A stretch of 64,000 nucleotides of DNA, taken from Agreia sp. VKM Ac-1783. Its GTDB lineage: Bacteria > Actinomycetota > Actinomycetes > Actinomycetales > Microbacteriaceae. The stretch covers positions 558,001 through 622,000 of the forward strand of contig NZ_FXWI01000001.1 of NCBI RefSeq assembly GCF_900177765.1, read 5' to 3'. The notes under the pieces are model-generated. The model was not told the origin of the DNA, ran no database searches, and saw only the letters and a list, made by a program, of their open reading frames with translations. A program made the translations under genes and the position numbers. Numbering within the stretch: the stretch's first letter is position 1; each line of letters opens with the position of its first letter. Positions 8,108-27,178 of the stretch are shown piece by piece.

Positions 8108-8115
8108 TGTAGCGG

Positions 8116-8568: not shown

Positions 8569-9009
8569 GTGAGTGAACCGCTGAATTCGAAGCCAAATCC
8601 GGGTGAACAAGTATCGGATCAGTCGTCGCGACGACCGATTCTGTTGATCGCGCTCTCCGTGGTCATCGCAGCCGAGGCCGCTCTCGCGACGGGCGTCACC
8701 GTCTGGCTCGTCGTCGAACTGCTCACCGCGACCCCCGATTCGTTCGCATCGGCCGTGGTCATCCTGCTTCTCGCCGCGGGGCTCGCGTGCGCCCTGTGGG
8801 CGATGGTCGTCGGCCTGCTGCGCACGCAGAGCTGGGTGCGCGGTGCGGCCCTGACGTGGCAACTCCTGCAGATCGCCGTCGCGATCGGATGCTTTCAGGG
8901 CGTTTTCGCCGTTCCGTCGCTCGGGTGGGCGCTGCTGGCTCCGGCGGTCGTGGCCATCCTCCTGCTCCTGAGTCCTCCCGTGGTGGCGGCGACGCGCAGG
9001 CTCTCCTAG
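8569..9009 (+). CDS. Small integral membrane protein, 146 aa
   Basis: Unknown function. Four hydrophobic segments are visible (beginning near ILLIALSVVIAAEAALATG, FASAVVILLLAAGLACALW, LTWQLLQIAVAIGCFQGVF and LGWALLAPAVVAILLLLS), so it should span the membrane four times with a short polar N-terminus. The GTG at 8569 follows AGGGG by 8 nt, whereas an in-frame TTG at 8536 lacks a ribosome site. Similar four-helix proteins next to whiB1 are common in Microbacteriaceae, to my recollection; no functional residue is evident. Confidence 0.7.
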   Translation: MSEPLNSKPNPGEQVSDQSSRRPILLIALSVVIAAEAALATGVTVWLVVELLTATPDSFASAVVILLLAAGLACALWAMVVGLLRTQSWVRGAALTWQLLQIAVAIGCFQGVFAVPSLGWALLAPAVVAILLLLSPPVVAATRRLS

Positions 9010-11653: not shown

Positions 11654-11683
11654 GGGGTCCTTCTCGTTCGGGGGGTATCGGCT

Positions 11684-12694
11684 CTACCCAGTGTGGCGTG
11701 TCACGAAGTCGATTGCGACGCTCAGCGCGGCAAGTCCTTCGGGTCGGTCGAGGTCGAATTGGTATTCGTGCGGCAGCGCGGGTGTGAGATCGCGGGGCCA
11801 GAACAGCCGCGTCACATCGACGCCGAGAGACTCGAGGCGATCAGCGAACGGTTTCGCTTGGGCATCGGTGAGCGGATCGCCGTTGCCTCCGCTGATGAGG
11901 GTAGGAGGATAGGCCGACGTCGCCCGGTGCATCGTCGACATCTCCGCCAGAACGGGCGACGTGGCGAAGCCCGGACCACCCACGTATGCGCGCAGTGCCG
12001 TGCGGTTGCCCCATCCGATGATGCCCGTCGAGTGCAGAAGGCCAGCCATCTCGTAGATGCCGCAATGAAGAATCACACCGCGCAGTCTGCTGGCCTCCAG
12101 GCCGGGCCGGATGCCGAGCTCTGCCGCGTACGCCGGGTCGGTGATCGCCGCCGCCAGCTGGCTGGAGAGCTGGGCGCCCGCGGAATCACCGGCGAGCACG
12201 ATGCGATCCGCGTCGATGTGCAGCTCAGCGGCGTGAGCGACGATATAGGCGTGCGCATCGTTCAACTGGTGAAGCGCCCCCGGGTACCGGCTGGCAGGCC
12301 CGCGCGTGTAGTCGAGGCTCACGACAGTGAACCCCGCTGCGGCCAGCAACTCGAAATACGGCGCCGCGTTCGCCCGACCGCCGGAGATCCACGCGCCGCC
12401 GTGGGTCCAGATCACGGTCGGACGGGGCGCCGTCGTGCCGGCCTGCCAGTAGGCATCCAGCATCGCGTGCGGGTCATGGGGGCGATACCGGATGCCGGTG
12501 GCCCGGTCGACGCCGCTGGGCGCGTGGGCCTGGAGAGCCTTCAGAACGCGCGCTCCGTCTTTCTCGAACACGTATCGCACGATCAGCGCCGATGGCCAGG
12601 GGCTCCACCTCCACGCGGCGATCGCGGCTGCCGCGACAGCGCCGATCACGACCGCCGCCGTGCCGAGGCGGGCCCCTGTGGGTCGACGAGTCAT
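11684..12694 (-). CDS. Alpha/beta hydrolase of the HSL (esterase/lipase) type
   Basis: A 336-residue protein with an N-terminal membrane anchor or signal (TAAVVIGAVAAAAIAAW, residues 12-28). The catalytic machinery of the hormone-sensitive-lipase family is clear: oxyanion-hole motif THGGAW (about 95-100), nucleophile elbow GDSAG, acid in GNGDPLT and histidine in LPHEYQF. Expected activity is carboxylesterase on small acyl esters, outside or at the membrane. The start overlaps the stop of the upstream hydrolase gene (ATGA), so both are made from one message. Confidence 0.8.
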   Translation of the reverse strand: MTRRPTGARLGTAAVVIGAVAAAAIAAWRWSPWPSALIVRYVFEKDGARVLKALQAHAPSGVDRATGIRYRPHDPHAMLDAYWQAGTTAPRPTVIWTHGGAWISGGRANAAPYFELLAAAGFTVVSLDYTRGPASRYPGALHQLNDAHAYIVAHAAELHIDADRIVLAGDSAGAQLSSQLAAAITDPAYAAELGIRPGLEASRLRGVILHCGIYEMAGLLHSTGIIGWGNRTALRAYVGGPGFATSPVLAEMSTMHRATSAYPPTLISGGNGDPLTDAQAKPFADRLESLGVDVTRLFWPRDLTPALPHEYQFDLDRPEGLAALSVAIDFVTRHTG

Positions 12695-13425
12695 CGCAGG
12701 GCCTTCGTGATCGTGTCGGTGATGATGTCGCGCATGTCGGAGTCGTCGATCGAGGACTCACCGTCGCCCGCCTGCGGCCCGTAGTCGCCGAACGCGGCGT
12801 GATTCGCGCCCTCGATCTCGGCGAAGGTCGTGTCGGCGGGAAGGGACGCCTTGTTCGCGTCGATCTTCTCGGGTGTGCTGAGCCCGTCGTCGCTTCCGGA
12901 TAGAGAGACGACCGTCAGAGCGGAGCCGGACAGGTCGTTCGCGCAGTACGACCCGAAGAGAACGAGCCCCTTCACCTCGGGCGAGTCTGCGTACATGCAC
13001 GCCTTCACGCCGCCGAGGGAGTGCCCTCCCACGAACCAGTCGGAGACGTCGGGCGCGAGTGAGGTGAAGGCCGATAGCGGTCGCGTCTCGAACAGCCCGA
13101 AATTGAGGAACGGGCGCACGATCACGACGGTGTATCCGGCCTCGACGAGGCCCGACAGTTTGTAGGCGTAGGCGACGGGCTCGATCTTTGCGCCCGCGAT
13201 GAACACCAGGCCCTCGCCGTTCGCTTCGGAGACGGGGGTCATGACGACCGAGTCCCGCGAGTAGTCGAGAGAGATCGCCGGGTCGTCGGCGACCTCGGAC
13301 AGAGGTTCGCGCTCGGCGGCGGAGGTGACGTTGGCGTACACGAGAAAGCCGCTCGCGCCCACCACGAGGGTGGTGACGACGAGCGCGGCGACGGTGCGCA
13401 GCACCGCGCGTCGTCGAGAAGTCAT
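12691..13425 (-). CDS. Alpha/beta hydrolase (hydrolase_5 type), membrane-anchored
   Basis: A 244-residue protein with one N-terminal hydrophobic segment (TVAALVVTTLVVGASGFLVY) and an alpha/beta-hydrolase core. The nucleophile motif is GGHSLGG, the acid lies in SLSGSDDGLSTP and the histidine in IEGANHAAFGDYG; the last motif is typical of PF12695 hydrolases. ATG 13425 gives a good signal-anchor; a GTG 27 nt upstream is possible. The substrate is unknown. It is co-translated with the following HSL-type hydrolase, so the pair probably processes related exported or cell-envelope esters, which is inference. Confidence 0.78.
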   Translation of the reverse strand: MTSRRRAVLRTVAALVVTTLVVGASGFLVYANVTSAAEREPLSEVADDPAISLDYSRDSVVMTPVSEANGEGLVFIAGAKIEPVAYAYKLSGLVEAGYTVVIVRPFLNFGLFETRPLSAFTSLAPDVSDWFVGGHSLGGVKACMYADSPEVKGLVLFGSYCANDLSGSALTVVSLSGSDDGLSTPEKIDANKASLPADTTFAEIEGANHAAFGDYGPQAGDGESSIDDSDMRDIITDTITKALR

Positions 13426-13461
13426 GAGGTCAATTGTGGCCGATCGTGACACGCTTGCACC

Positions 13462-13884
13462 ATGGATCTCGAGGTAGCGCCCGGCCTCACCATTCCAGCC
13501 GCCGAGCTCGAGTGGCGATTCTCGCGCTCATCAGGGCCGGGTGGCCAGCACGTCAACACCTCCGACAGCAGAGTGCAGCTGACCTGGAACGTCGGAGATT
13601 CCGCTGTGCTCGACGACTCCCAGCGGGAACGACTCACGAGCAGGCTGGGTCGGCGCCTCGTCGCCGGACGGATCACGATCACCGTCTCTGCGCAGCGTTC
13701 GCAGCTACGCAATCGCGAGACCGCCCTCGAGCATCTCGGCGAACTCCTGCGCGACGCGCTGGCTCCTCTGGCGCCGCTTCGCAGAGCGACCAAGCCCACG
13801 AGAGGCTCGGCGAGACGCCACCTCGCGGGCAAGAAGCGTCGTTCTGAGACCAAGCAGCAGCGTCAGCGGCCCTCAGCAGAGTAG
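13462..13884 (+). CDS. arfB: ArfB/YaeJ-like peptidyl-tRNA hydrolase (GGQ protein)
   Basis: A 140-residue release-factor-like protein that carries the catalytic GGQ in RSSGPGGQHVNTSDSRV and a Lys/Arg-rich C-terminal tail (KPTRGSARRHLAGKKRRSE). There is no codon-recognition domain. This is the layout of ArfB (YaeJ), which rescues stalled ribosomes by hydrolysing peptidyl-tRNA, with the basic tail entering the empty mRNA channel. Length fits the family. It is divergent from the hydrolase pair and convergent with the GH15 gene. Confidence 0.9.
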   Translation: MDLEVAPGLTIPAAELEWRFSRSSGPGGQHVNTSDSRVQLTWNVGDSAVLDDSQRERLTSRLGRRLVAGRITITVSAQRSQLRNRETALEHLGELLRDALAPLAPLRRATKPTRGSARRHLAGKKRRSETKQQRQRPSAE

Positions 13885-13906
13885 GCGAGCCACTCGGGTC
13901 TGGCGC

Positions 13907-15700
13907 TCAGTTCTCCTCGGTGGTCGGCGGTGAGAAGCGGGCGATGGCATCTGCCGCGCGCACCAGAGCGAGGTGCGAGAGGGCCTGGGGCGTGTTGCCC
14001 ATCTGTCGGCCAGCGGCAGGATCGTATTCCTCCGACAACAGCCCGACGTCGTTCGTGAACGAGACCAGCCTGTCCATGAGGGTCACCGCATCGGCCAGTC
14101 GACCCGTTCCGGCCCATTGCTCTGCCAGCCAGAACGAGCAGGCGAGGAACGGATGCTCGCCGGCCGGCAGCCCGTCGACGTCGCTCTCGGTGCGGTAGCG
14201 CATCACCAGCCCGTCGTTCAGGAGGTCGCTCTCGATCGCCTTCACCGTTCCGAGCATGCGCGCATCCGTCGGCGTGCAGAAGCCGGTCTGGGGCAGCAGC
14301 AGCAGCGATGCGTCGACCTCGGTGCTGCCGTAGTACTGCGTGTAGGTGCCGCGTTCCGCATCCCACCCGTTCTCTTCGATCTCGGCACGCACGTCGTCGC
14401 GCAGCTTCTCCCACCGGTCTGCGGGGCCGTCGAGCCCGAACTCGCGCACACCGCGCACCGCTCGATCGAGAGCCACCCAGATCATCACGCGCGAGTGTGT
14501 GAAGTGCTGCAGTTCGCCCCTGATCTCCCAGATGCCGTTGTCGGGCCGAGTCCAGTTCTCTTCGACGAAGCTCATGAGGGCCCTCTGCAGCGGCCAGCTG
14601 AACTCGGTCTCCTCCGCGCCCGCGAGGCGTGCCTCGTGCAGCGCCATCATCACCTCGCCGATCACGTCGGCCTGGTACTGCAGTGCCGCCCCGTTTCCGA
14701 TGCGCACGGGCGATGCACCCTGGTAGCCGGGCAGGCTCGTGATCTCTCGCTCGGGTAGGTCCCGTTCGCCGGCGAGGCCGTACATGATCTGGATGTCTGC
14801 GGGGTCGCCCGCGATGGCCCGCAGCAGCCAGTCACGCCAGTTCACGGCCTCTTCTGCGAAGCCGTGCGAGATGAGCACCTGCAGTGTGAGTGAGGCGTCG
14901 CGCAGCCAGACGTAGCGGTAGTCCCAGTTGCGTACGCCGCCCTGCGCCTCGGGCAGCGAGGTGGTGGCGGCGGCGACGATGCCGCCGGTGTCCTCGTGGC
15001 TGAGGGCTCGCAGAACGAGAAGCGACCGGATGACCTCCGGCCCGTACGGTCCGCCGTGGACGAGCGACTTCGACCAGTCCGCCCACCATGCCTTCGTGGC
15101 GACCAGACGCTCATCGACGTCGAGCCGCTGCGGCGGCTGCCTATGTGACGGGTACCAGGTGAGTGAGATGTCGACGTGGCTTCCCTCCCGAACGGCGAAC
15201 CGGCCCTGATGCCGAGTGTCGACGGCGGTGAGCCGAGGGCCTCGGCGCACCAGGGCATCCGGGCCTGCGATCGCCACGAGCATCGGATGGCCGTTCTCGC
15301 TCGACTGCCGCACCCACGGCACGGCCGTCGCGTAACCGAAACGGATCACCAGCTCCTCGAGCATCTCGACGTGCCCCGAGACGCAGCGGACCCGACGGAG
15401 AACATCGGCCCGTCGGTCGCCGTGCGGCATGAGATCGGTGACCTCGACGACACCGGTCGGGGTCGTCCAGGTCGTGATCAGAACGAAGGAGTCGCCGTCG
15501 TAGACGCGGGTGGCCGTTGCGTCGGGCGAGGTGGGAGCGAGCAGCCAGCGGCCGTGATCCTCATCGCCGAGGAGAGCGCCGAATGTCGAGGGGGAGTCGT
15601 AGCGGGGGAGGCACAGCCAATCGATGCTTCCGTCGCGACCGACGAGGGCTGCCGTGTGGCAATCGCTGATCAGGGCATAATCTTCGATGGCCAGGCTCAT
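13907..15700 (-). CDS. GH15 glycoside hydrolase (glucoamylase/trehalase-like)
   Basis: A 597-residue cytoplasmic protein of the actinobacterial GH15 type. It opens with IEDYALISDCHTAALVGRDG and SIDWLCLPRYDSPSTFG, has the (alpha/alpha)6-barrel motif VRNWDYRYVWLRDASLTL and a late segment FLACSFWLAEQWAGTGR, all hallmarks of this subgroup. Members act as trehalase (e.g. mycobacterial enzymes) or as maltooligosaccharide glucoamylase. The otsAB trehalose synthesis genes 21 kb away make trehalase plausible but do not prove it. It is divergent from the G6PDH gene, so glucose release and entry into the pentose-phosphate path may be linked. Confidence 0.9.
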   Translation of the reverse strand: MSLAIEDYALISDCHTAALVGRDGSIDWLCLPRYDSPSTFGALLGDEDHGRWLLAPTSPDATATRVYDGDSFVLITTWTTPTGVVEVTDLMPHGDRRADVLRRVRCVSGHVEMLEELVIRFGYATAVPWVRQSSENGHPMLVAIAGPDALVRRGPRLTAVDTRHQGRFAVREGSHVDISLTWYPSHRQPPQRLDVDERLVATKAWWADWSKSLVHGGPYGPEVIRSLLVLRALSHEDTGGIVAAATTSLPEAQGGVRNWDYRYVWLRDASLTLQVLISHGFAEEAVNWRDWLLRAIAGDPADIQIMYGLAGERDLPEREITSLPGYQGASPVRIGNGAALQYQADVIGEVMMALHEARLAGAEETEFSWPLQRALMSFVEENWTRPDNGIWEIRGELQHFTHSRVMIWVALDRAVRGVREFGLDGPADRWEKLRDDVRAEIEENGWDAERGTYTQYYGSTEVDASLLLLPQTGFCTPTDARMLGTVKAIESDLLNDGLVMRYRTESDVDGLPAGEHPFLACSFWLAEQWAGTGRLADAVTLMDRLVSFTNDVGLLSEEYDPAAGRQMGNTPQALSHLALVRAADAIARFSPPTTEEN

Positions 15701-15743
15701 GACCCCATCCTGGCACCATCAAGCTGTGAGCAGCGCCGACGAC

Positions 15744-15749
15744 TAGCCT
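15744..15749 (+). promoter_or_regulatory. -10 box of the G6PDH gene
   Basis: TAGCCT ends 7 nt before the ATG at 15757 and there is no ribosome site, so the message is probably leaderless. Confidence 0.5.
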
Positions 15750-15756
15750 GTCTACC

Positions 15757-17133
15757 ATGTCGAAGAAACTGTCATCGTTGATCATTCTCGGGGCGTCGGG
15801 AGACCTCACGTCTCGACTGCTTCTGCCCGGTCTGGGCCAGCTGCTCGGCGAGCAGAACGAGCGTCATCTGCAGCTGATCGGAGTGGGAGGCGCCGACTGG
15901 AGCGACGACGATTTCAGGAAGGTCGTCGACACGGCTTTCTCTGCCGTCGACTGCACCGGGCCGTCGGGTGAGCACACTCGAACGACGGCCACCTACCTCA
16001 AGGCCGACGTCACCGACCCCGCCGTCCTGCAACAGCTCATCGATTTGTGCGAGGTCGCTCCGGCGATCTACTTCGCCCTTCCGCCCGCCGTCGCCGTCGC
16101 GGCGTGTGAGGCTCTCGAGAAGGTGAAGCGTCCGGCGGGTCTGACCCTGGCCCTCGAGAAGCCGTTCGGCACCGACGTCGCGAGTGCCGAGGCGTTGAAT
16201 GCCCAACTCGCCCGCCTGGTGCCCGAGAACCAGATCCACCGCGTCGACCACTTCCTCGGACGCTCGACCGTGTTCAACCTCCTCGGCCTGCGGTTCGCGA
16301 ACCGCATGTTCGAACCGATCTGGAACGCGGAGCACATCGAGAAGATCGACATCGTCTACGACGAGCAGCTCGGGCTCGAGGGCAGGGCCGGCTACTACGA
16401 CACCGCCGGTGCGCTCATCGACATGATCCAGAGCCACCTGCTGCAGGTGATGGCCGTTGTCGCGATGGAGCCGCCGTCGACCCTGGGCGCCGACGATTTA
16501 CGCGACGCGAAAGAGATCGTTCTTCGAGCGACGAGTCTGAACGGCGATGACGCGTCGGCCTCGTCGAGGCGAGCCCGCTATACCGCCGGCGACGTCGACG
16601 GCCGCGAGATGCCCGCCTACTCGAAGGAACCCGGGGTCGTCGCGTCACGCAAGACCGAGACGCTCGCCGAGATCACGGTGCAGATCGACACCTGGCGCTG
16701 GGTGGGCGTGCCGTTCACTCTCCGCAGCGGCAAGGCGCTCGCGGAGCGCCGCCGCGAGATCGCCGTCACCTTCAAGAAGGCCAACCGCGTGCCGACCGGG
16801 CTCACCGGCACCGAGCATCCGAACGTTCTGCGCATCTTTCTCGCGCCCGACAAGATGTCGCTCGAACTCAACGTCAACGGGCCGGGAGACCCGTACGAGC
16901 TGGAGAAGACGCAGCTCGAGGCGATGTTCGGCGACGGCCAGCTGCTGGCCTACCGCGAGGTACTCGCCGGCATCCTCGACGGCGACCCGTCGCTCTCGGT
17001 CCGCGGCGACTCGGCCGTCGAAGGCTGGCGCATCGTGGCTCCCGTGCTCGATGCGTGGCGTGCCGACGAGGTGCCGCTCGACAGCTACAAGGCGGGCTCC
17101 GAGGGCCCGTCGAAGTGGACGCGCATCGGCTAG
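15757..17133 (+). CDS. zwf: Glucose-6-phosphate 1-dehydrogenase
   Basis: A 458-residue enzyme that oxidises glucose-6-phosphate with NADP in the pentose-phosphate pathway. The dinucleotide motif is LGASGDLTSRLLLPGL and the substrate/catalytic motif RVDHFLGRSTVFNLLGLRF corresponds to the classical RIDHYLGKExVQNL, with Phe for Tyr and Arg-Ser for Lys-Glu. Downstream motifs (DMIQSHLLQVMAVVAMEPP, FTLRSGKAL) are conserved. It is shorter and more divergent than the usual actinobacterial Zwf, so the chromosome may hold a second, standard copy elsewhere. It converges on the PaaK-like gene with 10 nt between stops. Confidence 0.88.
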   Translation: MSKKLSSLIILGASGDLTSRLLLPGLGQLLGEQNERHLQLIGVGGADWSDDDFRKVVDTAFSAVDCTGPSGEHTRTTATYLKADVTDPAVLQQLIDLCEVAPAIYFALPPAVAVAACEALEKVKRPAGLTLALEKPFGTDVASAEALNAQLARLVPENQIHRVDHFLGRSTVFNLLGLRFANRMFEPIWNAEHIEKIDIVYDEQLGLEGRAGYYDTAGALIDMIQSHLLQVMAVVAMEPPSTLGADDLRDAKEIVLRATSLNGDDASASSRRARYTAGDVDGREMPAYSKEPGVVASRKTETLAEITVQIDTWRWVGVPFTLRSGKALAERRREIAVTFKKANRVPTGLTGTEHPNVLRIFLAPDKMSLELNVNGPGDPYELEKTQLEAMFGDGQLLAYREVLAGILDGDPSLSVRGDSAVEGWRIVAPVLDAWRADEVPLDSYKAGSEGPSKWTRIG

Positions 17134-17143
17134 CGACGGCTCT

Positions 17144-18511
17144 CTACGCGAGCGACACGTAGCGGCGAGGCTTGCCCTCGCCGAGATCCGCCACCCTCTC
17201 GCGGCGTTCGACAGTGACAGGCCGACCGAGCAGCGCCTCGAGCGCTGCGGAGACTCGGCCCGCGTCGCCGCGCGCGATGACGGCCTCGACCCCACCCGTC
17301 GCATCCTGTTTCACCGACCAGCCATGAGCGCCGGCGGCCTGCAGCTGCTGCGTGAGATCGACGCAGGCGACACGGGAGCCGTCGTTCGCCAGAAACGTCG
17401 TGGCCTCTCGACCCTCGAGCTCGGCGATCGCGAGCCGCCCGTCGACCTCGACGAGCATGCCGAAGTCGCGTGTTCGGTACCGTACGAGCGGCAGCAGGGG
17501 GTTCTCACCCGCCGTCACCACGATCTCGCCTCGTTCGCCTTGGGAAACGGGTCGGCCCCGATCGTCGACGATCTCAACGTGTACCCGGCGGTCGAGAATC
17601 ACGAAGGGTCCGCCGTCGGCGCTGGATGCGATGGGCCGGGTCTCGTGCAGACCGTAGACGTCGATCACGGGGCATCCGTAAGACGCAACGAGGTCGGCCC
17701 TCAGGGCCCCGCTGAGGCCCATCGCGCCGGAGAAGATGACGAGCGGATGCAGCACCGCAACGAGCGAGGGGTCGAGCAGTTCAGCGAGGCTGGTGGGGCT
17801 GCCGCTGATGGCCTGGGGATTCTGCGCCTCGAGGAACCGCGCTCTCGTCAAACGATCGGGCCACTGCGCGTCGATCAGGTTGAGGCGCGCCATGGTTGCC
17901 TGCTCGAACGAACTGATCACCGACGCGTAGGTGAACGCCTGCCTCTGGTGCACCACGTGAGCGAGCGCCATGCGCTCGGGGTCCGGCGTCCACTCGACTC
18001 CCTGCTCTGCGGCGAGAGTAACGAGCAGATGGAAGGTTCGCGCTGTGTCCTCGATGTCGTCGGGAATGAGAAGTGCCCGCCCGGTGCTTCCGGAGCTCGA
18101 CCCGTGCACGGCCTGCTCGAGATCGGCGTCGAGCGGAACGAAGGCCGAGACGTCGTCGACGAGATCGTCGCGGCCGATGAGCGGAAAGTCTTCGAGAGCG
18201 ACGAGCTCGCCGGCGCGTCGTCGGTAGGCGGGAAGGCGCCGGGCTACATCGAGATGCCGATCGAGCCAGCCGTCGAGGGGCAGCGGAGTGCGCACCCGAC
18301 GGGCGGCGTCGGCGCTCAGCCTGTCGCCGGTCGCGTGCACCCAGGGCGGGGCGAACGGATGCGTGCGCAACGCCTCGAGGCGCCTGGCGCCCGGCGGTGT
18401 CAGGCTCGGCCAGCGCTCGCTGTCGTCGAGCGCTGTCTGGCCACCAGGGGTGTATTCGGCGATAGCGAGCGGATCGTCTGGGCCTTGACTGGCCTGCGCT
18501 ACGTCGCTCAT
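17144..18511 (-). CDS. PaaK/LuxE-like adenylate-forming enzyme (coenzyme F390 synthetase-like)
   Basis: A 455-residue member of the ANL superfamily. The phosphate-binding loop is HGSSSGSTGRA (136-146), the aromatic/adenine motif YGLHETRPIA (286-295), the hinge region YRTRDFG (345-351) and the C-terminal catalytic Lys in GEGKPRR (447). These place it near phenylacetate-CoA ligase and F390 synthetases rather than standard acyl-CoA ligases. It should activate a carboxylate as an adenylate, but the acceptor is unknown. It is the last gene of a five-gene coupled operon with an AAA+ ATPase and a VWA/metallopeptidase, an unusual setting for this enzyme. ATG 18511 overlaps the previous stop (ATGA). 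Confidence 0.75.
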   Translation of the reverse strand: MSDVAQASQGPDDPLAIAEYTPGGQTALDDSERWPSLTPPGARRLEALRTHPFAPPWVHATGDRLSADAARRVRTPLPLDGWLDRHLDVARRLPAYRRRAGELVALEDFPLIGRDDLVDDVSAFVPLDADLEQAVHGSSSGSTGRALLIPDDIEDTARTFHLLVTLAAEQGVEWTPDPERMALAHVVHQRQAFTYASVISSFEQATMARLNLIDAQWPDRLTRARFLEAQNPQAISGSPTSLAELLDPSLVAVLHPLVIFSGAMGLSGALRADLVASYGCPVIDVYGLHETRPIASSADGGPFVILDRRVHVEIVDDRGRPVSQGERGEIVVTAGENPLLPLVRYRTRDFGMLVEVDGRLAIAELEGREATTFLANDGSRVACVDLTQQLQAAGAHGWSVKQDATGGVEAVIARGDAGRVSAALEALLGRPVTVERRERVADLGEGKPRRYVSLA

Positions 18512-19212
18512 TCGTGCGTGTACCGCGCGGCGGCCTCCCGAGCGCGCGCCTCCTGTAGTTTGCGCGTGACCTCGAGTCGGTGGGCATGTTCCTCGGCGGC
18601 CGCGGCGAGGGCGCCGTTGCGCTGAAGGGAGTCTCTCATCGTCAACAGCGACGAAGCGGTCTCGCGATCCTCGCCCGCCGGTAGCTGGCCCGACCAGAAC
18701 AAGAACGTGCGCGCGGCCTCGTCGCGTCGCTCTGCGTCGCTGACCCACTCTGCCGGGTCGACCACCGACGCGAGTCGGAAAGCCATCGCGGCCAGCGCTC
18801 GAGCCGCATGCTCGCGCGCCAGAGGGGGAGCCAGCGGACCGAGTTCCTCGTCGCCGGCCCACAGCCACAGTGCGATCGCGGCACCGCGCCGAGCGGCCGA
18901 CGACCCGGTCGCGGCCACCTCGTCGAGCACCGTCACGACGTCTGTCGACTCCTGGCCGCGCCCACGGTCGGATTCGAGAACATCTCCGGCCAGAGCGACG
19001 ACCCGAACGCGATCGTCGAGGAACGTCTTCGGCACGGCGCCGATCCGACTCGCGACGGCATCGGCTGACGGCCCGGGAACCATCCCCGCCCAGACGGCAT
19101 CGATGCTCTCGTTCCTTGCCAACCAGCGCTGCAAGAGCGCCTCGGCAGCGGAAGGCGCCGGTGCGGAGGCCGGCCCAGACGTTCCGTGTTGTGCCTTCGA
19201 TCGATCAGCCAC
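18508..19212 (-). CDS. Unknown alpha-helical protein of the MoxR-VWA operon
   Basis: A 234-residue protein I do not recognise. After a disordered N-terminus (to about 25) it is predicted to be all-helical: AAEALLQRWLARNESIDAVW, then a segment rich in Ala/Leu/Glu, ending in a charged coiled-coil-like tail (HRLEVTRKLQEARAREAAAR). The GTG at 19212 has a strong GGGAGGA site 7 nt upstream and overlaps the end of the VWA gene by 8 nt, so I prefer it to the longer open frame from 19269. It ends overlapping the PaaK-like gene (ATGA). Its conservation in the operon suggests a scaffold or substrate adaptor; that is inference. Confidence 0.6.
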   Translation of the reverse strand: MADRSKAQHGTSGPASAPAPSAAEALLQRWLARNESIDAVWAGMVPGPSADAVASRIGAVPKTFLDDRVRVVALAGDVLESDRGRGQESTDVVTVLDEVAATGSSAARRGAAIALWLWAGDEELGPLAPPLAREHAARALAAMAFRLASVVDPAEWVSDAERRDEAARTFLFWSGQLPAGEDRETASSLLTMRDSLQRNGALAAAAEEHAHRLEVTRKLQEARAREAAARYTHE

Positions 19213-21175
19213 GACGTCCTCCCGGGGTGAGACGCCTGGATGCGCGGGGTTCGGCCAGGCGCCGGGCAAGACGCGCGCAGGCGGCCGGCGCGTCGTCCAT
19301 GGTGTCGATGTATTCCACGTCGTAACCGGCCGCGGCAGCGGGTTCGGCCATCTGGTGTCTGCGGTCCTCGACGATCAGCGTGCCGCTGTCGAGTACCCGG
19401 CGCACCTCGAGGGCTGTTCGGGCGTACTCCTCCTGGCCCGTGCCGAACATCGAGCGCAGCCCGTCGTCGGAGAGCACGACGACGTGCCTCCGGGTGACGG
19501 CGCCGTGGCTGCCCTTGTCGCCCCTCGTGTCGCGATAGCGGACGCCGAAGACATCGAGCGGGAAGGTCGTTCCTCCGCCGAAGTAGAAGGTGAGATCCCG
19601 CAGCGCCTCGGCGCGATCGCGGGTGAAGCGAGCCCCGCCGGCCACCTGCCCCGGTCCGGAGAAAGAGGTCACCCGCACGCGTCCGCCGCCGCGCAGCACA
19701 CTCAGGATCAGGATCGTTCCGGCGAGCACGGCGGGGGAGCCGGCTCGTGGCGCCCGCATGGATCCGGAGGAGTCGATGTAGATGTCGAGCCGCACGCTCT
19801 CGCGTTGTTCTGGCGGCGCATCCGGCAGTACGGCGCGCAGCCGGGTCGTGACGCCGGGAATGACGGTGGGATTCGTCGACAGCGTCGCCGACCAGTCGAG
19901 CGACGCGATCTCGTCATCGATGCTCCACTGCTCGAGGGCTCCGGGAATCGTCTCATCGACAGAGTTCGGGCGTGACGCCGGCTGGGTCAACGGTTTCACC
20001 CAGCGCTTGGCGGCGGTGATGTACCAGGCCGCAATCACCTCGTTCGGGTCGGCTGCCGAGTAGAGCTCGAGCGTCTCGGCCACGCCGTAGCCCTGGCCCA
20101 TGGCGTCAGCGCCCGCGCGAGGAGCGGACGGCTGCATGCCGTTCTCCGCCGGCGGGGCCGCCATGCCGCCCGCCCCGCGGGCCTTGATGACCGCCGGGTG
20201 CTCAGGCACCTCGCGCAACCGCGGATCACCGAGCACCTCCTCGAGCTCGCCCGCCGACGGCGGCGCTCCATCCTCCTGACCGGCGCATCCACCGTCGATC
20301 GCGCGCCCGGCGCCGCCTGACTGACCGGTCGAGCCGGCCGCTGCTGTGAGATAGGGAGCCAGCAGCATGCCGAAACGCAGGGCGCCGCTCACCGGGTCGT
20401 CGCCGAAGGTTCTCACGGTCTCGGCGAGCAGGCCCGCATCGACATCGGGGTTCGTCACCACGAATTCCGCCCACTGCGCCTCGGCGGCTATGCGTGCATC
20501 GACCGCGGCTGCGGCTGCCACAGCCTTGGCTCGCTGCGCGTCGGTGTCCGCCGCCTGAGGGGTGGTGGGTGCGGCGCGCTCGACCCGTTTCACCGGCCTG
20601 GGCGGCGGTGAGACGGGGCAGAGGAATCCCGCCGGCTTGCTCCACAGAATCTCGTAGGAGCGGAGTACGACCCACCACAGCTGCCCGGTCGGCGGCACCG
20701 ACGAGAGCACGCCCCACATGCGGATCATCTCGGGGTCGACCCCCGGCATCCCGTCGCGCTGGCGCTGCATGGCCGCGACGCGGACATTGATCAGCATGTC
20801 GGACCAGAGGTTCGACAGCATCTGAGCCTTCGCGTCCGGCTCGGGAATGAGGTCGCGTCCGGTCGCAGCGATTGCCCGGGCCATCTGCTGGGCGAGGGCG
20901 AACGAGGTGACGCGCGTGCTGGGCGACAGCACGTGATGGCCGATCTCGTGCGCGAAGATCGACTCGTAGAAGGCGCCCACCCCGTTGCGCTCCGCCTCGC
21001 TCGGATCGACGACCACCTGAGGGGGAAAGGAGAACCAGGCGAAAGACGGCATGTGCGCCCCGGGTTTCAACTCGGGATCGTGCAGATGAACGCCCCAGAG
21101 TGCCTGCGCACTCTCCCAGGCCATACGCTGCCGGTCGTCGAGAGGGTGCTCGCGGCTGCCGAAGAGGGGTGTCAT
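19205..21175 (-). CDS. Zinc-metallopeptidase-like plus VWA fusion protein (DUF2201-type)
   Basis: A 656-residue fusion. The N-terminal domain has an HExxH zinc motif, FAHEIGHHVLSP (His76, Glu77, His80), followed by NLWSDMLINVR (Asp126), which matches the putative third ligand region of DUF2201 N-terminal domains. A low-complexity Ala/Gly/Pro linker follows (about 200-360). The C-terminal VWA domain has the MIDAS motif DIYIDSSGSM (Asp468, Ser470, Ser472), Thr in GGGTTFP (536-537) and Asp570 in VVVLSDDG. Proteins of this kind pair with MoxR AAA+ ATPases, as here. The true start is ATG 21175, which overlaps the previous stop; the open frame runs further upstream but only as a shadow of that gene. 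Confidence 0.78.
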   Translation of the reverse strand: MTPLFGSREHPLDDRQRMAWESAQALWGVHLHDPELKPGAHMPSFAWFSFPPQVVVDPSEAERNGVGAFYESIFAHEIGHHVLSPSTRVTSFALAQQMARAIAATGRDLIPEPDAKAQMLSNLWSDMLINVRVAAMQRQRDGMPGVDPEMIRMWGVLSSVPPTGQLWWVVLRSYEILWSKPAGFLCPVSPPPRPVKRVERAAPTTPQAADTDAQRAKAVAAAAAVDARIAAEAQWAEFVVTNPDVDAGLLAETVRTFGDDPVSGALRFGMLLAPYLTAAAGSTGQSGGAGRAIDGGCAGQEDGAPPSAGELEEVLGDPRLREVPEHPAVIKARGAGGMAAPPAENGMQPSAPRAGADAMGQGYGVAETLELYSAADPNEVIAAWYITAAKRWVKPLTQPASRPNSVDETIPGALEQWSIDDEIASLDWSATLSTNPTVIPGVTTRLRAVLPDAPPEQRESVRLDIYIDSSGSMRAPRAGSPAVLAGTILILSVLRGGGRVRVTSFSGPGQVAGGARFTRDRAEALRDLTFYFGGGTTFPLDVFGVRYRDTRGDKGSHGAVTRRHVVVLSDDGLRSMFGTGQEEYARTALEVRRVLDSGTLIVEDRRHQMAEPAAAAGYDVEYIDTMDDAPAACARLARRLAEPRASRRLTPGGRRG

Positions 21176-21888
21176 GCGGCCTGCCCCAGAACGAGCCAGG
21201 CGAGGTAGGACGTGTCGAAGACGGCGAGTCTGGTCGGCCATGCTCCGGATGCCGGGGGCACCACGGGCCGCGCGGTCTCGCGGTCGGTGCTGGTCTCGGC
21301 CCGGCTCAGCCTGGTGCCGAAGATGTCGGCCTCGAGGCGCCAGACTCCTCCGTCGGCGAGGGTGATCAGATAGTCGCCGTCCGACGACATCGGCTCGGCG
21401 CTCGCAGGGGGAGCGGTCCAGGGTCCGCCGAGTCCTCGAAAGCCGCCCACGCGAGCGACGACGACCTCTCCAGAGCCACGCGCGGGCCACCCGAACGGGC
21501 TCTCGGCCTGGCAGCGCACGAAGTCCGCCAGCTCGCCCGCTTGCAGGCCGAGGGCGCTCGCGAGCACGGCGTCGGCGACGGACCCGCTCTCTAGCGACTC
21601 GGTGAGCCGGCCCAGCGCATCCTGTCTCAGATCGAGCACGCCCGAGCGCCACGCGGCCAACGCGGCGAGCGTGAGTACCGTGTGCGGCAGGGGCTGTTCG
21701 GTCGTCGATCGGCTGCGGTCGAGGGCGATCGAGGTCGCGAAGAAACGGCTGTACAAGTCGGGGTCGCCGCCCCACGACACGACGTTGTCTGTCGCGAGTC
21801 GAGTGTCGAATCCGTCGAGGGCGGCGAGCGGGGGCACCACCGCCGGGCCGAGGGTGTCGTTGACCGCGAGACCCGCGCGTCGGATCAT
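21172..21888 (-). CDS. Unknown protein between MoxR ATPase and VWA metallopeptidase
   Basis: A 238-residue soluble protein with no motif that I recognise. The first half is helical (TVLTLAALAAWRSGVLDLRQ, ALGLQAGELADFVRCQ); the second half looks beta-rich (SSDGDYLITLADGGVWRLEA, FDTSYLAWLVLGQ). It is locked into the operon by ATGA overlaps at both ends (21885-21888 and 21172-21175), which implies matched expression with the ATPase and the VWA protein. It could act as an adaptor between them, in the way small partners do in other MoxR-VWA systems; this is inference. Confidence 0.6.
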   Translation of the reverse strand: MIRRAGLAVNDTLGPAVVPPLAALDGFDTRLATDNVVSWGGDPDLYSRFFATSIALDRSRSTTEQPLPHTVLTLAALAAWRSGVLDLRQDALGRLTESLESGSVADAVLASALGLQAGELADFVRCQAESPFGWPARGSGEVVVARVGGFRGLGGPWTAPPASAEPMSSDGDYLITLADGGVWRLEADIFGTRLSRAETSTDRETARPVVPPASGAWPTRLAVFDTSYLAWLVLGQAA

Positions 21889-23459
21889 CGTGGTCGGCTC
21901 TCGAGCCAGCGCAGGTAGTTGGTGTAGCGCTGGTGCAGATATTTCAACGCGACGAGGTCGTCGAAGTGCCGACCGTAGAGCTTCTTCTGGCGCGAGATCA
22001 CCTGAATCTGCGACTCGATCGCAGTCAGCCTGCGCGATCCCTCCACCTGGCTCACCCCGTCGAGGCCCTGCGCGAAGGTGGCGAGGAGATCGCCGACGGG
22101 GTCGGTCTTGGCGAGCCCGAGTGACGCGAATTGACGACAGGACTGCTCGAAGAGGTCGGCGAGCCAGCTGACCTGGTCGGTGGCGAGCTCGCGGTCGGCT
22201 CCGGTCTCGAAACGGGGATGGAGCTCGTTCGGCAACAGTTTGCCGCGAAGCGAGAAAGGCAGCACGGCCGCGACGTCATCGAGGCCGACGGCCGGAACGC
22301 CTCGGAAGTAGGCCATCGCCTTGGCATAGGTGATGAGGGACTGCAGGGCGCGGGCCGACAGACTGTTCGTCGTCTGCGCTCCTATGTCGACCTGCAGATC
22401 GGCGCCCGTGTTGCTGTCGATCACCTCACCGACCTGGCCACCTCCGGTCATCACGGTGTCTTTGGTGCGGTACTCGAAGCGTCGACCGCCGTGCTGGACG
22501 AACTCGAATTGGCTCGCGAAGAACTCGAGCTGTCGACGAACCGTCTGCGGAACGGGGACGGCCCGAATGGCCGCAGCCAGCGCCTGCTGCTCGGCGGGCG
22601 CGAAGACGAGTTCAGAAGGGACGTTCTCTTCGGGCTTCTCGCCCGCCTCGACCCGGGTGACGAGCTCATCGAAGAAGCGGCTGTTGAAGCCGAGAGCCGC
22701 CACGGTCACGTCGACCCGGTCTTTGAGAGCTTGGATGACGGGGAACGTTCCGCCGCCGGCATCGTCGTTGGCCGTGAAGAACCAGCTCTCGACGCCGGAT
22801 TCCGGTGCCGTCGAGAGCATCTGGTCGTAGCTCTCGACGTAGCCTTCCGCCACCATGGTGAGGAGGGCCGACTGGGTCTTGGTCGGAATCCGGTTGTATT
22901 CGTCGATGATCTTGACGGGTCTGGTGAGCCAGCCGCGCCAGGCGATCTCGATCTCGGGAAGGCTGGCGGCGTTCACGAGGTCGCGGGGGAGCGGCATCCC
23001 CACGAGATCGCTGACGGTGAGCTGCGGCTGGCCCTGCTGCACGCTGCGGCGAACGTCTTGCGGCGTGCTGCCCGCGATCACTCCCATCAGCACCGCGAGT
23101 GTCGTCTTGCCGCGCCCCGGGCCGCCTACCAGCAGGCACTTGCCGCCCAGGGCGAACGTGAGCAGAGGCAGCAGAACGTTCGACGAATACGACTGGTCGG
23201 TCGGCAGATGCAGTTCGGCGCCTGCGTCGCCCAGCGGAAAGCTCAACGGAGCGTCGAAGGAGAACTCGATGTCGTAGAACGGCGAGATGACGGCCGTGTT
23301 GACCAGCCAGTAGTAGACCTGGCGCAGCTTCTCGTCGAGCGCGACGCTCGATTGCGGCGCCTGCTGCCTGAACAGGTCTTCTGCGGTGAGCCCCGGGAGA
23401 GAAACCCCTGCGCCGGTTCGCGTGGGAGAGGCCGAGATCTTGTTCCAGCGATTGGGCAT
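21885..23459 (-). CDS. MoxR-type AAA+ ATPase
   Basis: A 524-residue ATPase. Walker A is GGPGRGKTTLA (112-122), Walker B VKIIDEYNRIP (182-192) with DEYN in place of the usual DExx-N, sensor 1 lies in WFFTANDDAGG and the Arg-finger region in QALKDRVDV. MoxR proteins act as chaperones with VWA partners, often for cofactor insertion or complex assembly. The C-terminal 200 residues are longer than in typical MoxR proteins and end in a charged helix. It is the first gene of the five-gene operon; the ATG at 23459 follows a TAGACT box by 6 nt and has no ribosome site, so the operon's mRNA is probably leaderless. Confidence 0.85.
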   Translation of the reverse strand: MPNRWNKISASPTRTGAGVSLPGLTAEDLFRQQAPQSSVALDEKLRQVYYWLVNTAVISPFYDIEFSFDAPLSFPLGDAGAELHLPTDQSYSSNVLLPLLTFALGGKCLLVGGPGRGKTTLAVLMGVIAGSTPQDVRRSVQQGQPQLTVSDLVGMPLPRDLVNAASLPEIEIAWRGWLTRPVKIIDEYNRIPTKTQSALLTMVAEGYVESYDQMLSTAPESGVESWFFTANDDAGGGTFPVIQALKDRVDVTVAALGFNSRFFDELVTRVEAGEKPEENVPSELVFAPAEQQALAAAIRAVPVPQTVRRQLEFFASQFEFVQHGGRRFEYRTKDTVMTGGGQVGEVIDSNTGADLQVDIGAQTTNSLSARALQSLITYAKAMAYFRGVPAVGLDDVAAVLPFSLRGKLLPNELHPRFETGADRELATDQVSWLADLFEQSCRQFASLGLAKTDPVGDLLATFAQGLDGVSQVEGSRRLTAIESQIQVISRQKKLYGRHFDDLVALKYLHQRYTNYLRWLESRPR

Positions 23460-23465
23460 GATCTC

Positions 23466-23471
23466 AGTCTA
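23466..23471 (-). promoter_or_regulatory. -10 box of the MoxR-VWA operon
   Basis: On the minus strand TAGACT ends 6 nt before the ATG at 23459. The rest of the 152-nt gap to the divergent RND gene shows no further clear site. Confidence 0.45.
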
Positions 23472-23611
23472 GGAACGCGTCCGCAGCAGGAGTGGTACCT
23501 GGGGCCCATGTCTGCGTGGCGGAGATGGCTCTTTCTGAGGACGCTCCGGCAGGCGGCGGGCTGCCATGGTGTGGAGGTTCGTACCTCTGACGCGAGAAAG
23601 ACCACCCCCAC

Positions 23612-26600
23612 ATGATGCTGCTTACCCGCCTGAGCCTCGCCAATCGCGCGATCGTCGCTCTCCTCAGCCTGTTGATCGTCGGAGTCGGATTGTGGGCGAC
23701 ATCGACGATGAAGCAGGAGCTGCTGCCGGCGATCGAGCAGCCCACAGCGGTCGTCGTCGTCACCAAGGCCGGGGCCTCGCCGGCGACGCTCGACAAGCAG
23801 GTCGTCGTTCCCCTCGCACAGGCGCTGGAGGCCGTGAGCGGAGTCGACGACGTCACATCGACGACGTCGAATGGATCGGCACAGGTCACGGTGACCTGGG
23901 CGTTCGGAGGCGACGGCAGCAAGATCATCGCCGACGTGGACGCGGTCACCAAGACGGCGCTCGCCTCCGCTCCGAGCGGCGTGACCTCCACCGTCATCGA
24001 CGGCAGCACCGGTGACATCCCCGTGCTCGCGCTCGGTCTCACGAGTGACGACAGCATCGAGACCTTCGCGGAGCGCGTCGATTCGATTCTCGTTCCCGCG
24101 ATCAAGAAGGTGCCCGGCGTGCGCGGCGTCGAGGTGGCTGGCCGCACCCAGGAGCGCGTTCTGGTCACCCTCGATCCCGCGGCACTCGTCGCCTTCAAGA
24201 TCGATCAGGCCACCGTCGGCGCTCTTCTTCGAACGGCGGGCACCGTCGTGCCGGCCGGCACCAGCGTGGAGGGCGAGCAATCGCTCGCGATCGAGGTGGG
24301 TCAGGAGAACGCGACGCTCGCCGATATCGCGTCGATGCCCATCCCTGCGCTCGCGGGCCCCGTGCTGCTGTCGCAAGTGGCCGCGGTCGCGCTGGTTCCG
24401 GTAGATCAGAGCTCGCTCTCGCGCGTGGATGGCCGGCCCTCTATCGGACTGACCATAACGAAGACGCCCGACGCGAATGCCGTGCAGGTCTCCCACGCGG
24501 TGGCCGCCGTCGTTGCGGCTCAGGTCGCCGACCTCGGAACCGCCAGCGCCAGCCACACGATCTTCGATCAGTCGACCATGGTCGAGAAGTCGATCCACGA
24601 TCTCTCTGTCGAGGGCGGTCTCGGACTGCTCTTCGCCATCCTCATCATTCTCGTCTTCCTGCTGTCGCCGCGGGCCACGATCATCACGGCGATCTCCATT
24701 CCCCTGTCTCTGCTCATCGCGATCATCGGTCTGCGCCTCGGAGGCTTGTCTCTCAACATCTTCACCCTTGCCGCTCTCACGGTTGCGGTGGGTCGCGTGG
24801 TCGACGACTCGATCGTCGTGATCGAGAACATCGTTCGGCGACGAGGCGACACCGGCCTCACTCCGGATGGCGTGCGCGCCTCTGTGGCCCAGGTCGCGGG
24901 CGCGGTCACGGCGTCGACGCTCACGACGGTGGCGGTGTTCCTGCCAGTCGCGTTCGTCGGCGGCATAGCCGGCGAACTGTTCCGACCGTTCGCTGTGACC
25001 GTCGCGGTAGCGCTCCTCGCCTCGCTCATCGTGTCGCTCACCATCGTTCCGGTGCTCGCGTACTGGTTCTTGCGTAAACCGAAGGCGTCGGCGCAGCGTG
25101 ACGAGCATGCGGCGCCCGCGCCGGTGGCCGAACACGTCGAAGCGACGACCCGGATGCAGCGCGCCTATCTGCCGGCGCTCGCCTTCGCGCTGCGCCGCCC
25201 CATCTTGATGGTGGTCGTCGCCGTGCTGGTCTTCGGGGGCAGTCTCGTGGGCGCCGGCTCGCTCAAGACCGACCTGCTCGGGGGATTCTCGGATGCTCGG
25301 GCGGTGCAGGTGCAGCAGAAGATGCCTGTGACAGCGACTCTCGCCTCGGGCGACGTCGTTGCGGCCGGCCTCGAGAAGTCGATCTCGTCTGTGTCTGAGG
25401 TGGAGTCGTACCAGACGACCGTGGGCATGCAGGGCGCCCCGGTGCGGCTCGATCTCGTACTCACGGCGGACGCGGACCCCGAGGCGGCGATGCGCGCGAT
25501 CCGCAAGGCCGTCGACGACCTTCCCCGTGCCGAGGACATCACGGTTCAGGCACAGGCGACCCAGACCACGAGTTCCACGATCGACGTGCTCGTGAAGGGA
25601 AACAACGAGGTCGACCTGGCGGCCGCGGCCACGTCTATCTCCGAGCGTCTGGGCACGCTCGACAAAGTGAGTGCGGTGACCACCGATCTGGCGGGCGATC
25701 AGCCGCTGCTCAAGGTGGCCGTCGACCAGAGTGCCGCAGCGGCACAGGGCTTCACCACGGCCGAGGTCGGGGCGGCGATCGCAGCCGCGGTCGAAGGCGA
25801 ACGATTGGGCACGGTCAGCGTCGATGGTGTGACACACGACCTCGTGCTTCGCTCCCAACAGACCGACACGACCCCCGCTGCCATAGGTGCTCTCCCTCTG
25901 CCGGTTTCGGCGGTCCAGCAGCAGCGTGCGCAGAAGACCGCCACAGACGCTGCCACTCAGGAGCAGGAGAACGCCGCGGCCGCCGCGCGGGCGGAAGCAA
26001 ATCGACAGGCAGCCAATCAGGTGTCCGAGCTCGTCGCATCCAGGGCGAAGGCGGTCGCGGACGTGGCGGCCTTGCGCGGGCAACTGGCGAGCCTCATCGC
26101 CAACCCGCCGCCGGCAGACCCGGCGCCGGTGACAGCGGGCGAGCTGGCGGCTGTTCCCTATGAGCAGCTCGTGGTGCAACTCAGTGCGGCCATCGACGGT
26201 GCCGCCTCCGGCATCGACGGTCTCGACGAGCAGATCAAGACCGCGCGAAAGGCCATCGCCGACGGCCAGGTGCAGCAGGCCGAGACGGAACGCCTGGCGC
26301 AGCTGCAGCGCGACATCGAGAATGTGCGCGCGACACCGCTCCTGGTGAGCGACCTCGCGGCGGTCGAGGTCGTCAACGCTCCCTCGACCATCACGCGAAG
26401 CAATGGCGAGCGCGTCGTGACCGTCTCCGTCACGCCGAAGGCGGGAGACCTCGGGGGTGCTACAGAAGCGATCAACGCTGCCGTCGCGACGATCGACCTG
26501 CCCGATGGTGTGAGCCTCGACCAGGGCGGCGCAGCAGAGGATCAATCCGCGTCGTTCATGCAGCTCGGGCTGGCCATGGTGGTCGCCCTCGCTCTGGTCT

Positions 26601-27178
26601 ACATCGTGCTGGTCGCAACATTCCGTTCGCTGCTGCAGCCCCTGCTGCTGCTCGTATCGGTTCCCCTCGCGGCGACGGGCGCCATCGTCGGCCTGCTCGT
26701 CACGGGAACACCCCTCGGTATTCCGGCTCTGATAGGCATGCTGATGCTCATCGGAATCGTGGTCACCAACGCCATCGTGCTCATCGACCTGATCAACGAA
26801 TACCGGCGTGAGGGCGCGAGTATCGACGATTCGGTAACGCACGGATCGCGGCTCCGGCTGCGCCCGATCATCATGACGGCATGCGCCACGGTGTTCGCGT
26901 TGCTGCCGATGGCTCTCGGGCTCACAGGCGGCGGCGCTTTCATCTCGAAATCTCTCGCCATCGTGGTGATCGGCGGACTCCTCTCGTCGACCGTGCTGAC
27001 TCTGCTCGTCGTTCCGGCGATCTACGTTCTGCAGCACCGTGGGGCGGAGCGCCGGAAGGCCAGACGCGACCACACGTCGGAGCGGGTCGCGACCGATCAG
27101 GCCGCCGTTCTCGCCGGGGAGGCGACGGTCGAGAAGGAGCCGGCCGGCGAAGGTGATCGTGGGAGAATGACGACGTGA
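23612..27178 (+). CDS. RND-family efflux transporter (AcrB/SwrC-like) with coiled-coil insertion
   Basis: A 1188-residue inner-membrane exporter of the HAE1/AcrB type. It has an N-terminal helix, porter domains, the helix bundle with GRVVDDSIVVIENIVRRR (TM4 Asp-Asp relay) and a second bundle with VVTNAIVLIDLINEYRREG. Between about residues 768 and 905 it carries an extra segment rich in Ala, Gln and Glu (for example QQQRAQKTATDAATQEQEN and ASGIDGLDEQIKTARKAIAD), which looks like a long coiled-coil hairpin in the second porter half. No membrane-fusion protein is encoded beside it, so this hairpin may take over the periplasmic-adaptor role. The stop overlaps the following kinase gene. The substrate is unknown. 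Confidence 0.85.
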   Translation: MMLLTRLSLANRAIVALLSLLIVGVGLWATSTMKQELLPAIEQPTAVVVVTKAGASPATLDKQVVVPLAQALEAVSGVDDVTSTTSNGSAQVTVTWAFGGDGSKIIADVDAVTKTALASAPSGVTSTVIDGSTGDIPVLALGLTSDDSIETFAERVDSILVPAIKKVPGVRGVEVAGRTQERVLVTLDPAALVAFKIDQATVGALLRTAGTVVPAGTSVEGEQSLAIEVGQENATLADIASMPIPALAGPVLLSQVAAVALVPVDQSSLSRVDGRPSIGLTITKTPDANAVQVSHAVAAVVAAQVADLGTASASHTIFDQSTMVEKSIHDLSVEGGLGLLFAILIILVFLLSPRATIITAISIPLSLLIAIIGLRLGGLSLNIFTLAALTVAVGRVVDDSIVVIENIVRRRGDTGLTPDGVRASVAQVAGAVTASTLTTVAVFLPVAFVGGIAGELFRPFAVTVAVALLASLIVSLTIVPVLAYWFLRKPKASAQRDEHAAPAPVAEHVEATTRMQRAYLPALAFALRRPILMVVVAVLVFGGSLVGAGSLKTDLLGGFSDARAVQVQQKMPVTATLASGDVVAAGLEKSISSVSEVESYQTTVGMQGAPVRLDLVLTADADPEAAMRAIRKAVDDLPRAEDITVQAQATQTTSSTIDVLVKGNNEVDLAAAATSISERLGTLDKVSAVTTDLAGDQPLLKVAVDQSAAAAQGFTTAEVGAAIAAAVEGERLGTVSVDGVTHDLVLRSQQTDTTPAAIGALPLPVSAVQQQRAQKTATDAATQEQENAAAAARAEANRQAANQVSELVASRAKAVADVAALRGQLASLIANPPPADPAPVTAGELAAVPYEQLVVQLSAAIDGAASGIDGLDEQIKTARKAIADGQVQQAETERLAQLQRDIENVRATPLLVSDLAAVEVVNAPSTITRSNGERVVTVSVTPKAGDLGGATEAINAAVATIDLPDGVSLDQGGAAEDQSASFMQLGLAMVVALALVYIVLVATFRSLLQPLLLLVSVPLAATGAIVGLLVTGTPLGIPALIGMLMLIGIVVTNAIVLIDLINEYRREGASIDDSVTHGSRLRLRPIIMTACATVFALLPMALGLTGGGAFISKSLAIVVIGGLLSSTVLTLLVVPAIYVLQHRGAERRKARRDHTSERVATDQAAVLAGEATVEKEPAGEGDRGRMTT

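Follow-up and report, generated by a model that had tools for sequence, protein, structure and literature searches.

A five-gene MoxR-VWA cassette in Agreia and its association with NadR-like genes

The five genes of the cassette

We describe here a cassette of five overlapping genes, encoded on the minus strand, positions 17144-23459, of a 64,000-nucleotide stretch (the window) of the genome of Agreia sp. VKM Ac-1783 (contig NZ_FXWI01000001.1, positions 558,001 to 622,000). Read 5' to 3', it encodes a MoxR AAA+ ATPase (g1), an orphan protein (orphan 1, g2), a fusion of an HExxHH zincin-like domain with a von Willebrand factor A (VWA) domain (g3), a second orphan (orphan 2, g4) and a PaaK-like AMP-forming enzyme (g5). 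Two conclusions are well supported: the cassette belongs to the class of MoxR-VWA remodelling machines and, as our strongest new result, it is tied to nicotinamide-nucleotide (NAD) metabolism through genes for NadR-like proteins. An earlier examination of the letters and open reading frames (the sequence-only reading) had noted that all four gene junctions overlap by 4 or 8 nucleotides; coordinates and reading frames confirm it, the successive overlaps being 4, 4, 8 and 4 nucleotides. The genes and the motifs discussed below are as follows:

21885..23459, minus strand: g1, MoxR-type AAA+ ATPase, first gene of the cassette (524 amino acids; PF07726 and PF17863 above cut-off)
23103..23123, minus strand: g1 Walker A motif GPGRGKT, residues 113-119, invariant in six aligned proteins
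21172..21888, minus strand: g2, orphan 1 (238 amino acids; known from homologues and an AlphaFold2 model)
21424..21444, minus strand: g2 motif GFRGLGG, residues 149-155 (F150 and G152 invariant, G154 and G155 in at least 90% of 56 sequences)
19205..21175, minus strand: g3, zincin-like HExxHH domain with C-terminal VWA (656 amino acids; alignments of 6 and 40 homologues)
20933..20950, minus strand: g3 zinc-site motif HEIGHH, residues 76-81 (H76, E77, H80, H81 and D126 invariant in 40 sequences)
19760..19774, minus strand: g3 metal-ion-dependent adhesion site (MIDAS) motif DxSxS, residues 468-472; T536 and D570 complete the site
18508..19212, minus strand: g4, orphan 2, GTG start (234 amino acids; homologue in 82 of 85 loci)
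18511..18540, minus strand: conserved tail at the C-terminus of g4, roughly 10 residues long, [RK]EAAA[RQ]Yxx plus one last residue that is mostly Glu, otherwise Val or Tyr
17144..18511, minus strand: g5, PaaK-like AMP-forming enzyme (455 amino acids; PF00501 above cut-off)
17171..17173, minus strand: g5 Lys447, a lysine of catalytic type in the C-terminal part, in at least 90% of 33 sequences

The Pfam matches of g1 are to the AAA_3 core (29 bits, cut-off 27) and to AAA_lid_2 (23.8 bits, cut-off 22.7). Its identity to copies in five genomes of the same order is 54-58%, and a search of the window's genome with g1 returns the protein itself and three partial matches, with E-values of 6.8e-6 or weaker. 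The VWA partner, g3, is encoded together with the MoxR ATPase and carries a complete MIDAS, in which S470, S472 and D570 are invariant and D468 and T536 are kept in at least 90% of 40 sequences. The MoxR-VWA class, to which the sequence-only reading had assigned g1 and g3, is thereby borne out. The AlphaFold2 (AF2) model of g3, with a predicted local distance difference test (pLDDT) score of 86, is helical in its N-terminal and middle parts and ends in an alpha/beta VWA domain, with no propeller; structure matches support the VWA part, NorD being the best one found by Foldseek.

The label of DUF2201-type protein, which had also been proposed for g3, holds in part. Both domains resemble the DUF2201 profiles in profile-to-profile comparison (hhalign values of 94%, N-terminal domain, and 72%, VWA), the best of 50 column-shuffled N-domains reaching 1.6%, with the reservation that the DUF2201 profile was built from 15 of 25 loci picked by an HExxH...W...D pattern and therefore leans towards that motif. 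DUF2201 zincin-VWA proteins and g3 share the same order of HExxH, the following W/N...D..IN motif and VWA. However, Pfam does not assign DUF2201 to g3, which is not above the cut-off of PF13203 (DUF2201_N), and this model gives no g3 match in the window's genome either.

Along with g3, the two orphans gave no match above cut-off in the Pfam scan. In the case of g2, no convincing Pfam match was found among 56 homologues; the AF2 model (pLDDT 92) has a helical N-terminal half and a mainly beta C-terminal half, and has no Foldseek match in the PDB at E≤0.001. For g4, 52 members gave no convincing Pfam match, and the three loci in which no homologue was seen are cut by contig ends. The glutamate at position -9 of its tail is present in 81 of 81 sequences (L067, cut by the contig, being excluded), with freely varying third codon positions; the tail is fixed at the protein level.

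The g5 protein has the AMP-binding domain, core motifs and C-terminal lysine of ANL adenylate-forming enzymes, although Lys447 is replaced or shifted in L018, L020 and L089. Its nearest solved relative by profile is PaaK (2y4o, E 1.6e-21) and its nearest NCBIfam family DVU1553_fam_AMP (E 5.6e-17). In spite of this likeness to PaaK phenylacetate-CoA ligases and to the DVU_1553 family, g5 lies far below the equivalog cut-offs of both, with 61.8 bits against 300 for the latter; an identity as a PaaK equivalog was rejected at 34.6 bits against the TIGR02155 cut-off of 646. The residues that the sequence-only reading had singled out, His76 and Glu77 of g3 and Lys447 of g5, proved to be the correct ones, conserved as listed.

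Conservation and spread of the five-gene set

A g1 scan of one genome per species, covering 84,980 bacterial and archaeal species, gave 471 stretches, of which the best 80 were kept; with five from the window's order they make up 85 loci (L016 and L077 being identical DNA), and the figures describe these nearest relatives, i.e. a close family. The genera include Agreia, Microbacterium, Cryobacterium, Nocardioides, Mycolicibacterium, Cellulomonas, Kibdelosporangium and Massilia, among others. Curated profiles scored g1 in 85 loci, g2 in 82 (83 with L079, which a position filter had removed), g3 in 82, g4 in 82 and g5 in 80. All five genes are found in the same order in 79 of the 81 loci with enough contig, four loci on short contigs (L044, L067, L084 and L098) being left out; the view of the sequence-only reading, that the five form one system with a lasting tie to the AMP-forming enzyme, stands on this count. 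In L053 (Mycolicibacterium houstonense; 6728-8791 and 12063-14065) g3 is displaced or broken: a g3 stretch lies upstream of MoxR, the g3, g4 and g5 frames are damaged and Ns are present, which probably reflects assembly trouble. The gene junctions are conserved too. Taking as start the in-frame start closest to a 4-nucleotide overlap, a choice that favours small values, and counting L016 and L077 both, g1/g2 overlap by 4 nucleotides in 73/84 homologous loci, g2/g3 by 4 in 78/82, g3/g4 by 4, 8, 11 or 20 in 78/82 and g4/g5 by 4 or 8 in 64/80.

A different scenario is observed at a distance. At phylum level g3 matches occur in 19/396 genomes, mostly distant; a search of the phylum gave 18 further genomes with a g3 match, and of the 12 regions examined ten carry the MoxR/zincin-VWA pair only, one (L137) all five genes and one (L143) none. 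The ten two-gene loci (L132-L136 and L138-L142) all lie outside the window's class and have neither the orphans nor an adjacent AMP enzyme; in L133 a weak AMP-binding match (23.6 bits) is found about 4 kb away. The simpler form is that of two genes, MoxR and zincin-VWA; what marks the window's clade is the presence of the orphans and the AMP enzyme. The sequence-only reading had held that the five genes would not be one system if homologous clusters usually lacked the enzyme or the orphans: close relatives do not lack them, whereas all ten distant pairs do.

The cassette is present in 6/198 genomes of the order and 8/199 of the family; in the phylum of Massilia 6/299 genomes match, three of them strongly (the centre genome included). 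Agreia pratensis is the nearest named relative (93% when MoxR and AMP enzyme are taken together). In a midpoint-rooted tree of 38 rows, built from the sequences of both proteins joined end to end, those of Mycobacteriaceae and Nocardioidaceae fall among Microbacteriaceae-type cassettes, and two Pseudomonadota rows adjoin a mostly Pseudonocardiaceae group with full support; this tree is consistent with horizontal movement. In the window, the cassette's neighbours are a convergent glucose-6-phosphate dehydrogenase (G6PD) gene and genes for a GH15 protein and an AcrB-type transporter, and the flanking genes look chromosomal. Among 8 genomes of one genus, five have the cassette next to this same G6PD gene, and three match on the G6PD side but have no cassette. 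When positions 13907-27178 of the window were compared with this genus, both flanks matched in G1076, and the G6PD side, without the cassette, in G772, G1078 and G1079.

Some loci carry additional genes. Radical SAM homologues lie beside or inside the operon in 2/5 pseudomonadotal loci examined (L088, 17975-19165, Pfam Radical_SAM E 3.5e-12; L245, about 11140-12105; not in L100, L101 or L244), and none was found in the other loci with more than 6 kb of sequence. In a Myxococcales metagenome-assembled genome (MAG; L097, 9157-13003), a 736-amino-acid protein without a Pfam family and a Ser/Thr protein kinase are encoded between g3 and g4.

NadR-like and PnuC partners

Clustering of the genes that flank the cassette brought out one conserved neighbourhood, which the sequence-only reading had overlooked, formed by a NadR-like gene and a gene for PnuC, of the nicotinamide mononucleotide (NMN) transporter family. 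In the flanks covered the former is present in 60/85 loci (L096 counting with one end of the gene only) and the latter in 58/85. They lie upstream of the cassette in Actinomycetota and downstream in Pseudomonadota: the NadR-like gene ends within 150 nucleotides of the MoxR start in 54 loci, 19 of them with a 4-nucleotide overlap, and lies 0.2-3 kb upstream in four further ones; in the pseudomonadotal L088, L101, L244 and L245 it follows g5, with PnuC in between in L244 and L245. The ten two-gene regions have neither partner.

The association does not depend on linkage. Within 199 genomes of the family, a full-length NadR-like match (E<1e-20) is present in 10, and all 8 cassette genomes are among them (Fisher p 8.5e-13, kinship ignored); in 5 of these 8, as in the window's genome, the gene is unlinked, and in the latter it lies beside a PnuC gene. 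Five genera hold both cassette-bearing and cassette-less genomes, and in each of them NadR-like gene and cassette go together. A second test set comprised 24 of the 25 loci without a flank copy, along with six further genomes that have the cassette and 50 genomes of the order that lack it. At E≤1e-10, NadR-like genes were found in 30/30 cassette genomes and 1/50 cassette-less ones, the match in G1212 being partial, and for all 24 tested loci without a flank copy the gene is present elsewhere in the genome (the contig of L067 starts at MoxR, and linkage is not visible there). Overall, 35/35 distinct cassette genomes tested carry a NadR-like gene, whereas only 3 of the 241 genomes without the cassette in this family and order do.

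In the NadR tree (which omits L230, from the L067 genome), linked and unlinked actinobacterial copies form separate supported clades: the linked clade comprises 28 rows and one cassette-less genome, all 16 unlinked copies fall outside it, and the G355, pseudomonadotal and myxococcal copies stand apart on long branches. Several NadR lineages are therefore paired with the cassette, which makes hitch-hiking less likely. The NadR-like genes of cassette-less genomes are those of L220 (11185-12943, G139), L219 (G604) and L238 (G024), and PnuC adjoins two of them, in L219 and L220. The G139 copy falls among the cassette-linked ones and is perhaps the remnant of a lost cassette.

The copy of the window's genome (L214, 9932-11146, C6) has an NMNAT-type domain followed by an RNK-type AAA_28 domain (PF01467 and PF13521 above cut-off). 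That of L017 shows AAA_28 and a CTP_transf_like (PF01467) match just below cut-off, and that of L101 AAA_28 only. The NMN_transporter domain of PnuC scores 184.8 bits in the window's genome, 173.8 bits in L088 and 173.8 bits (E 4.3e-51) in L017.

A possible role in nicotinamide-nucleotide metabolism

We tentatively favour the idea that the five genes make one MoxR-VWA remodelling machine which works with the NadR-like enzyme and PnuC, in the maturation of an enzyme or in the installation of a pyridine-nucleotide-derived group. From what is observed, namely gene order, overlaps, conserved catalytic motifs and the co-occurrence with NadR-like genes, we infer every chemical step, the client and each contact between the proteins. 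PnuC would import a pyridine riboside, which the NadR-like protein would convert to nucleotide forms of the NMN/NAD type; g5 would adenylate a carboxylate carried by a protein partner or by an intermediate derived from a nicotinamide nucleotide; the g1 ring, with the g3 MIDAS site and the conserved C-terminal tail of g4 as its coupling points, would spend ATP to open and load or release a client; and the zincin domain of g3 may trim or hold that client. Enzyme maturation or the installation of a pyridine-nucleotide-derived group seems the most likely purpose.

A more specific version, which we consider doubtful, is that of an assembly line which makes a cofactor, or a group carried by a protein, from a nicotinamide nucleotide: the NadR-like protein would supply the nucleotide, the PaaK-like enzyme (with a radical SAM protein in some Pseudomonadota) would activate and modify it, possibly on the orphan 2 tail as carrier, and the MoxR/VWA-zincin would install it in the client. 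The nickel-pincer nucleotide pathway (LarB/C/E), in what is available of its description, is alike in outline only, in that an enzyme there receives a modified pyridine nucleotide, and its activating enzyme is different.

Several findings weigh against the idea of a machine serving nicotinamide-nucleotide metabolism: (i) The three cassette-less genomes mentioned above carry NadR-like genes, and four more of 191 cassette-less family genomes have half-length matches at E≤1e-10. (ii) The base rates for NadR-like genes are those of the window's family and order only; PnuC was scored within cassette loci only. (iii) All NadR-like matches fall below the TIGR01526 cut-off of 341 bits (0/199 and 0/80 genomes above it, the best at 273 bits), and for this reason we call them NadR-like. 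(iv) In the actinobacterial copies read, except L231, Thr or Ser stands where the kinase domain should have its Walker A lysine, a residue described as essentially conserved in the available text of PMC7221760; L088, L101, L224 and L231 retain it. Since most actinobacterial copies lack this lysine, the kinase step may differ. (v) The NorD match of g3 (Z 13.2) is no better than those of many unrelated VWA domains. (vi) L100, a proteobacterial MAG, is without g5. (vii) The neighbourhood of the cassette has no constant gene for a client enzyme.

Comparison with known machines shows where the cassette departs from them. Midasin (Rea1; MIDAS-UBL) is a single giant chain, whereas g1 is a separate ATPase of 524 amino acids. 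NorQ-NorD, involved in metal insertion, has a MoxR AAA+ ATPase and a VWA partner as the cassette does; in NorQ-NorD the C-terminus of the VWA protein contacts the ring, as the accessible part of PMC13036017 describes it. To this pair the cassette adds the zincin domain, two orphans, the AMP-forming enzyme and the NadR/PnuC partners, and no nitric oxide reductase was found in the regions studied.

After cofactor or enzyme maturation, which is our first choice, comes a regulated system for conflict with invaders, belonging to the ternary MoxR-vWA type, in which the NadR-like protein and PnuC would restore NAD after an NAD-depleting attack or effector; we hold this to be rather unlikely. Such systems are known and, in the available texts (PMC7159879; also PMC8195603), have MoxR, vWA and constant further components, as here. 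The patchy distribution of the cassette, the fact that members of a single genus either have or lack it next to one and the same G6PD gene, the nesting of mycobacterial and Nocardioides cassettes in a mostly Microbacteriaceae clade and the protein kinase added in the myxococcal locus would all fit. However, as far as these texts go, their component set is not that of the cassette, and the available text of PMC7159879 makes no mention of AMP-dependent, LuxE, CoA ligase or DUF2201. The Pfam scan of the five proteins found no FtsH-type protein, the AF2 model has no propeller fused to the VWA of g3, Pfam gave no convincing propeller match either, and the g2 and g4 families gave no convincing Pfam match to VMAP, iSTAND or another third conflict component. 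Nor is there a recognisable effector. Of the five proteins PADLOC matches g1 alone, three times and weakly (E 0.0045-0.045); searches of plasmids for g1 (E≤1e-50) and of phages for g3 (E≤1e-5) found no copy, and the flanks in the window look chromosomal. The sequence-only reading had raised a conflict role as possible, and at the limits used these searches do not support it.

Its own model was a general machine for the activation, ligation or quality control of proteins or peptides, to which NadR and PnuC would be irrelevant. An operon that encodes an AAA+ ATPase, a zincin and an adenylate-forming protein agrees with such a machine, as does the g4 tail, whose fixed place at the C-terminus would suit a peptide that is recognised or processed; yet we find it quite improbable, as it leaves the NadR-like co-occurrence, unlinked cases included, unexplained. 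Ligation or cleavage of a protein by the complex, and a role in quality control, gain no support from our results. Very improbable is the idea that NadR and PnuC only travel with the cassette as a block without shared function, which the single supported clade of linked actinobacterial copies would suit, but against which stand the copies found elsewhere in the genome in all 24 tested loci, the position of the unlinked copies outside that clade and the different order of the partners between phyla.

Many of the widespread MoxR-VWA machines lack a known client. For the one described here a partner gene predicts the pathway, which makes its role testable. Taken together, our results suggest that this machine may work in a branch of vitamin B3 (NAD) metabolism that has stayed hidden, and if it is true that a dedicated AAA+ machine serves nicotinamide-riboside metabolism, this would represent a new branch of NAD metabolism or a new pyridine-nucleotide cofactor.

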